Below the pieces are notes generated by a model, which was not told the origin of the DNA, ran no database searches, and saw only the letters and a program-made list of their open reading frames with translations. Source: Acidobacteriota bacterium (GTDB lineage Bacteria > Acidobacteriota > Vicinamibacteria > Vicinamibacterales > UBA8438). From it: a DNA stretch of 48,230 bases. Positions 1 to 1,344 of this stretch are shown here, piece after piece. Within the stretch, counting starts at the first letter, position 1. Each line of letters begins with the position of its first letter. The stretch covers positions 1 to 48,230 of the forward strand of contig JADFPE010000006.1 in NCBI GenBank assembly GCA_022562495.1. Reading direction: 5' to 3'. Both the position numbers and the translations under genes were made by a program.

Positions 1-138
1 TTCACCACCATCCGGACTTACCACGAATGTCGGGAAGCCTGATCCCTCTCTACACTCATGGTGTCCCAACCCGCCGACGAGGACTATGACGGTGGTCATC
101 AAGTTGGTTGATTGCCACGACTTTGCACCGACAAACTC

Positions 139-167
139 TTGACACCAGCATGCGTACCTCTGAGAAT
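139..167 (+). promoter_or_regulatory. Candidate sigma70-type promoter (TTGACA - 17 nt - GAGAAT)
   Basis: TTGACA at 139-144 and GAGAAT at 162-167, just upstream of the palindrome and the 185 start. Confidence 0.4.
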
Positions 168-177
168 GGATCAGGAA

Positions 178-193
178 TTTAGCCATGGCTAAA
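178..193. promoter_or_regulatory. Perfect 16-bp palindrome TTTAGCCATGGCTAAA spanning the start codon; candidate DtxR/MntR-type metalloregulator operator
   Basis: Sequence equals its own reverse complement; ATG at 185-187 lies inside; downstream N-terminus is TroA/ZnuA-like. Confidence 0.5.
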
Positions 194-1246
194 CTATCTC
201 GAATCAGAGCGGTGGCAACATTCATACTGGTTCTGTCTGCCGCAACACCCCAAATGGCCGCCGTTGCTTCCCCCAAGCCGATAGTCGTCTGCACCACCAC
301 CATGATCGCCGACCTCGCGCGGAATCTGGCCGCCGGGAGATTCGAGGTGAAGGGAATCATGCGTCCCGGCGAGGATCCCCACCTCTACGACCCCAAACCC
401 CTGGACGCCATCACGACCGATGACATCGAGGCGTTCCGGGATGCCCGCAAGGCCGCCGGTCGGTCAGCGGTCACCGTCAACCACGACCTCAAGCTGCTGA
501 GGAAGATGTTCAACTGGGGGATCCGCAAGGGCTACGTGGAACGAACACCGTTCAAGATCGGAACCGAGCCAGCGATCACGCTGGAGAAGGAAATCCCGAG
601 GTCCCGCAGATTCGAGACCGAAGAGGATGAGCAGCGACTGCTCAATGCCGCAAATCCTCAACTGCGGGCCGTGATCATCGCCATCTTGGACACTGCATGT
701 CGTCCGGGGGAGATCCTCTCTCTTCAGTGGAGGGACGTGAACCTGGGGCGTCGGGAACTGACGGTCCAAGCGGTGAAGTCCAAGACCCGAACCGCCCGAA
801 TGATCCCGATCTCCTCAAGGCTCGCGGCTGTGTTGGAGATGCGCCGACTGGATCCGGCGGGGAAACCGTTCCCGCCAGAGGCGTATCCGTTCGGCAACGC
901 GGTTGGGGAGCGGTCCACGTCTGTCCGCACAGCGTGGGAGAACGCCCGGGACGAGGCAGGGCTGCCTGGGTTTCAGCTTCGGGATCTTCGACACGAGGCT
1001 GGGTCACGGTTCGATGAGGCTGGGGTCTCCATAAACTATGTGAGCAAGCTGCTCGGGCACGCCGACCTCACGACGACCACCAGATATTTGAACATCAATC
1101 GCCGGGGGTTGCATCGGGCGATGCAGCAACTGGAAGACCACCGCACAGAAAATCTTGCACAAACCTTGCACACGCCGTCTGAGGACGCACAGGACGTTGT
1201 GCGCGAGCCAGAGCAGACTCCCGCCTCGAAGTCCAAGCCGGTCTAG
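185..1246 (+). CDS. Chimeric ORF: signal peptide and N-terminus of TroA/ZnuA-type metal-binding protein (about aa 1-72) fused to truncated tyrosine recombinase/integrase (about aa 73-353)
   Basis: N-term PIVVCTTTMIADLARNLAAGRFEVKGIMRPGEDPHLYDPKP is cluster-9 SBP-like; C-term DTACRPGEILSLQWRDV...LRDLRHEAGSRF...VSKLLGHADLTTTTRYL is the integrase catalytic domain. Confidence 0.8.
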   Translation: MAKLSRIRAVATFILVLSAATPQMAAVASPKPIVVCTTTMIADLARNLAAGRFEVKGIMRPGEDPHLYDPKPLDAITTDDIEAFRDARKAAGRSAVTVNHDLKLLRKMFNWGIRKGYVERTPFKIGTEPAITLEKEIPRSRRFETEEDEQRLLNAANPQLRAVIIAILDTACRPGEILSLQWRDVNLGRRELTVQAVKSKTRTARMIPISSRLAAVLEMRRLDPAGKPFPPEAYPFGNAVGERSTSVRTAWENARDEAGLPGFQLRDLRHEAGSRFDEAGVSINYVSKLLGHADLTTTTRYLNINRRGLHRAMQQLEDHRTENLAQTLHTPSEDAQDVVREPEQTPASKSKPV

Positions 1247-1256
1247 CAGTTAGAGT

Positions 1257-1344
1257 TGGTGCGGAAGGGGGGACTTGAACCCCCATGGGACTAGGTCCCA
1301 CAGGCTCCTGAGGCCTGCGCGTCTGCCAATTCCGCCACTTCCGC
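1257..1344 (-). tRNA. tRNA-Leu(CAG), CCA encoded
   Basis: Reverse complement GCGGAAGTGGCGGAATTGGCAGACGCG CAGGC-CTCAGGA-GCCTG ... GGGGGTTCAAGTCCCCC CTTCCGC ACCA; acceptor, anticodon and T stems pair; long class II variable arm. Confidence 0.95.

Follow-up and report, generated by a model that had tools for sequence, protein, structure and literature searches.

Two families of proteins provide the terms of comparison for the locus described here. Cluster-9 substrate-binding proteins of the ZnuA/TroA type (PF01297) carry a GxDPHxY segment near the N-terminus, following the signal peptide, and fold into two lobes, both of which supply ligands to the bound metal. Tyrosine integrases of tRNA-targeting islands (PHROG 1) have the catalytic residues R, K, HxxR, H/W, and Y, complete N-terminal and core-binding domains, and genes lying next to tRNA genes. 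In the window, by which we mean the whole stretch of 48,230 nt that was analyzed, parts of both families occur in one frame: the ORF at 185-1246 of the plus strand starts with ATG, encodes 353 amino acids with no internal stop, and consists of the start of a ZnuA/TroA protein joined in frame to an N-terminally truncated tyrosine integrase. The features around it are the following.

139..167, plus strand: TTGACA-17-GAGAAT, a sigma-70-like promoter preceding the ZnuA start (10/12 matches, 1 found vs 0.2 expected; a consensus match only)
185..400, plus strand: 5' part of a gene for a cluster-9 metal-binding protein of ZnuA/TroA type, with signal peptide and the first ~44 profile positions (profile, PDB, family alignment)
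392..412, plus strand: junction zone (PKPLDA-I), which fits either parent family, the exact joint not being resolvable (family alignments)
401..1246, plus strand: N-terminally truncated tyrosine integrase, with half of the core-binding domain and a complete catalytic domain (profiles, XerA 4a8e alignment)
1257..1344, minus strand: intact tRNA-Leu (CAG), presumed attachment gene of the island (tRNA detection, relatives)

In the Pfam comparison, residues 34-77 match positions 1-44 of the 263 in the ZnuA profile PF01297 (E 2e-9, above cut-off) and residues 145-305 match Phage_integrase PF00589 (E 1e-21), while residues 70-116 match the SAM-like core-binding domain in its second half (profile positions 37-83 of 83). 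Each half scanned separately scores equally well, and both the ZnuA and the catalytic-domain matches pass curated cut-offs, so the similarity is not due to chance. NCBIfam, PHROGs, and PDB comparisons divide the ORF at about one place; the PDB matches of TroA/PsaA/MntC type fall within residues 11-82 and those of XerA/XerD/Int type run from about residue 63-76 on. The first-pass annotation, made from the sequence alone, had already read a ZnuA/TroA piece with signal peptide up to about nt 400, followed by the core-binding and catalytic parts of a tyrosine recombinase; Pfam, PDB, and alignment agree on the former, the SAM-like half-domain and PF00589 matches bear out the latter, and the halves examined apart, as had been advised there, each match their own family with scores unchanged.

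The N-terminal part resembles known ZnuA/TroA proteins in its signal peptide, read from the sequence, and in the block CTTTMIADLARN...GEDPHLYDPKP that follows it. It differs from them in ending after ~44 of 263 positions, without the rest of both lobes and most of the metal ligands, and it does not have the length needed to fold as a metal-binding protein. The ribosome site, promoter-like site, and signal peptide within the first 400 nt are as expected of a normal znuA start. An inverted repeat (ATCAA-GTTGG-TTGAT, window 98-112) also lies 5' of the ZnuA start and is possibly the operator of the original znuA promoter.

The integrase part (residues ~71-353) has its catalytic residues in place by alignment to XerA (4a8e): R173, a K within 198-205, R266-x-x-R269, H292, and Y301, the first His of the HxxR motif being replaced by Arg (R266) here as in the intact relative. 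The gene stops 10 nt from tRNA-Leu(CAG). Its nearest intact relative (genome G051, contig C1, L032:3633-4958, 441 aa) shows 61% identity over 261 residues, has a complete catalytic domain, and likewise ends a few nucleotides from the 3' end of a tRNA-Leu, in that case tRNA-Leu(GAG). The difference lies in the N-terminal ~150 further residues of that relative, in whose place our ORF has the ZnuA piece and a SAM-like domain that begins only at profile position 37 of 83. Complete integrase relatives are open frames of 442-530 aa with N-terminal parts of their own.

Alignment to both families places the junction at residues ~70-76 (nt ~392-412), which agrees with the position near nt 400 proposed earlier. 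The ORF tracks complete ZnuA-like proteins through GEDPHLYDPKP.DA and diverges from them thereafter, and it tracks complete integrases from KP..AITTDDIEAF on. Since both families read K-P-x-(D/A) at residues 71-75 (nt 395-409), around AAACCCCTGGAC, the junction is confined to about 20 nt. At this place the nearest ZnuA genes have the codons GTC CGC CCG CGC GAC GCC and the nearest intact integrase GAG AAG CCG GTT GCC GAC ATC; a joint formed where a few codons are microhomologous, made either in a cell or in a library, would fit these readings. No parent close enough to fix the joint at base level was found, the best ZnuA source being 68% identical over 41 aa, and the parents at hand are too distant to inform: nt 380-424 agree without a break over at most 12 nt with any of the foreign loci compared, which is for that reason uninformative. 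The junction 27-mer was absent from the viral contigs scanned.

Full-length homologs with the same architecture, which according to the first-pass annotation would show a known fusion, were looked for and none was reported. Both halves in one relative were not reported in some 800 genomes or in plasmid, phage, and viral collections, and we found no family of homologs having both parts in one frame. Genome searches made with one half at a time returned ordinary ZnuA or ordinary integrase frames, and two scans of viral contigs turned up neither a single frame matching both parts nor a confirmed integrase relative. When the whole chimera was compared by tblastn with plasmids and phages, the matches listed with at least 80% coverage were annotated integrases or unannotated, at 24-28% identity.

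Where, then, did the ZnuA piece, the doubtful side of the join, come from? The assembly contains no other ZnuA and no ZnuA C-terminus, a search for the family finding this fragment only, and the piece has no match in 27 other genomes of the same family; across 396 genomes from the host phylum it reaches 53% at best, over 45 residues. Phycisphaerae proteins are closer, with 59-68% identity over 41-47 residues (top match 68% over 41 aa), and nothing closer than 68% occurs in 397 Phycisphaerae genomes. The GTDB scan uses exact short peptides and favors matches of that kind, so that a Phycisphaerae origin is to be taken as a lead, not as proof. The ZnuA relatives are frames of about 280 residues or more, except for two short ones near a contig edge. 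GC content is 0.53 at 1-184, against 0.67 for the contig to the right of the tRNA.

The search for the lost half of the integrase gave a similar outcome, for the N-terminal part of the intact relative finds only this locus in the assembly, with no matching integrase N-terminus elsewhere. The second integrase of the genome (L033, G000 C83, 3323-4318, minus strand), which runs off its contig end near the equivalent residue, was considered as the missing part and rejected, because its identity is no higher than ~40-50% and it is part of a different element.

On the integrase side the sequence is clearly genuine host DNA. To its right lie tRNA-Leu(CAG) and then sppA, a tRNA-sppA pair that is kept in relatives, and a member of another genus in the same family (G010, contig C110, L031:6698-7072) has an integrase remnant at the same tRNA-Leu(CAG)-sppA place and in the same orientation. 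This remnant comprises the last 57 aa, with 79% identity to our integrase, and the bases from stop to tRNA are nearly identical between the two loci. It differs in being cut much nearer the C-terminus, in having no ZnuA piece, and in being joined in frame to unrelated DNA. Differences between the two sequences number 8, 7, and 21 by codon position (dN 0.15, dS 0.72); as they fall mostly at third positions, most of the divergence arose in working integrases. In another genome (G049) a less closely related integrase lies at tRNA-Leu(CAG), again adjoining sppA, and in a genome of the same genus (G001) transposase-like frames and others of mobile appearance occupy that side of this tRNA. In this family of bacteria the site is a tRNA island hotspot of the ordinary kind, and its integrases are decaying.

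How the two parts came together is a harder question, on which the first-pass annotation had left two answers, a recombination scar or an assembly misjoin, while holding a functional protein unlikely. Our results sustain that judgment: no homologous architecture is known from the searches, both halves are truncated members of ordinary families, and a contig edge lies 400 nt away. The open frame is an accidental join, for which a misjoin in the draft metagenomic assembly (339 contigs, 89.7% complete) is by a slight preference the likeliest cause, with roughly an even chance of being correct; the join, we infer, arose in the data and not in the chromosome. A chimeric read or a low-coverage extension of the contig end would have joined the first ~400 nt, in which an unrelated znuA-like gene begins with its promoter and ribosome site, at the short K-P-x-D/A patch to the genuine host DNA that runs rightwards from about nt 401, the end of a genomic island inserted where tRNA-Leu(CAG) has its 3' end, with the island integrase reading towards the tRNA. 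This preference rests on the contig edge, since base 1 of the window is the end of contig C329 and the junction lies ~400 nt from it, and on the foreign, orphan nature of the ZnuA piece. The absence of an integrase N-terminus from the assembly and the lower GC of 1-184 also speak for it. In metagenome assembly chimeric contigs are common at low coverage, and species of low coverage are known to be pulled into them (PMC7881036). Against a misjoin stands the patch common to both families, at most about 5-6 codons long. A de Bruijn assembler normally needs a k-mer of 21 nt or longer, and because the patch falls below this, a misjoin would require chimeric molecules or reads. The lack of a long shared repeat, together with the setting of a decaying island, favors instead a real deletion scar in the chromosome, a serious contender whose chances we put a little short of even, so that the two readings are close. 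Illegitimate recombination at short microhomology would then have removed the DNA from the znuA start in the island cargo to the middle of the integrase, leaving an in-frame, non-functional remnant and locking the island in place. The integrase does sit at a true island hotspot, where G010 has an independently truncated one and G001 its mobile-looking frames on the same side of the tRNA; the joint is compatible with few-codon microhomology, and the ZnuA start is preceded by an intact promoter and ribosome site. Yet the junction recurs in none of the relatives, nothing close to the ZnuA piece turned up in the genome, the family, or the sample of the phylum, and a contig ends beside the join. 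Because islands do carry foreign genes and decay by deletion at such places, the foreign character of that piece does not tell the two readings apart.

One in three accidental joins keeps the reading frame, and the two parents are open genes of an ordinary sort, which accounts for the open frame and deprives it of value as evidence of function. A functional protein is very unlikely. An exported, metal-sensing integrase directed to the envelope has in its favor the presence of open frame, promoter, ribosome site, signal peptide, and catalytic-domain residues, but we hold it to be extremely improbable, given a ZnuA part with 44 of 263 profile positions and without most of the metal-binding fold, an integrase from which the first ~150 residues are gone, and with them half of the core-binding domain, which clamps DNA, an export that would remove the product from DNA, and an architecture reported nowhere in our searches. 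Hardly to be credited either is a real, expressed fusion in which promoter and start of the metal-binding gene would drive a shortened integrase with a residual or regulatory role, for example binding to the att site without recombination. Somewhat less far-fetched, though still decidedly improbable, is that the integrase part is used alone from an internal start, the ZnuA start being incidental; start codons do occur inside the frame and nothing of the catalytic domain is missing, but any such product would still lack the N-terminal parts of its complete relatives.

Most simply, then, the fusion in ORF 185-1246 is an accidental join and not a new kind of protein. This calls for caution, as automatic annotation would label the ORF either integrase or zinc-binding protein, from which a false record of domain fusion could arise. 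What remains, the hotspot at tRNA-Leu(CAG), is ordinary biology. The mobile-looking frames of G001 (C77, L034, 3679-8000), named by reading translations, lie next to this tRNA-Leu and comprise an IS3-type transposase-like frame, a P-loop ATPase-like frame resembling a defence-island protein, and a second transposase-like frame. In the present genome, a 32-nt tRNA-Leu-like stretch (C65, L004, G000, about 1501-1532) was considered as the far attachment site of the island and rejected, because it resembles the 3' end of a nearby complete tRNA-Leu(TAG). This copy of a tRNA-Leu 3' end lies ~130 nt from the complete tRNA-Leu(TAG) and is possibly a remnant attachment site.
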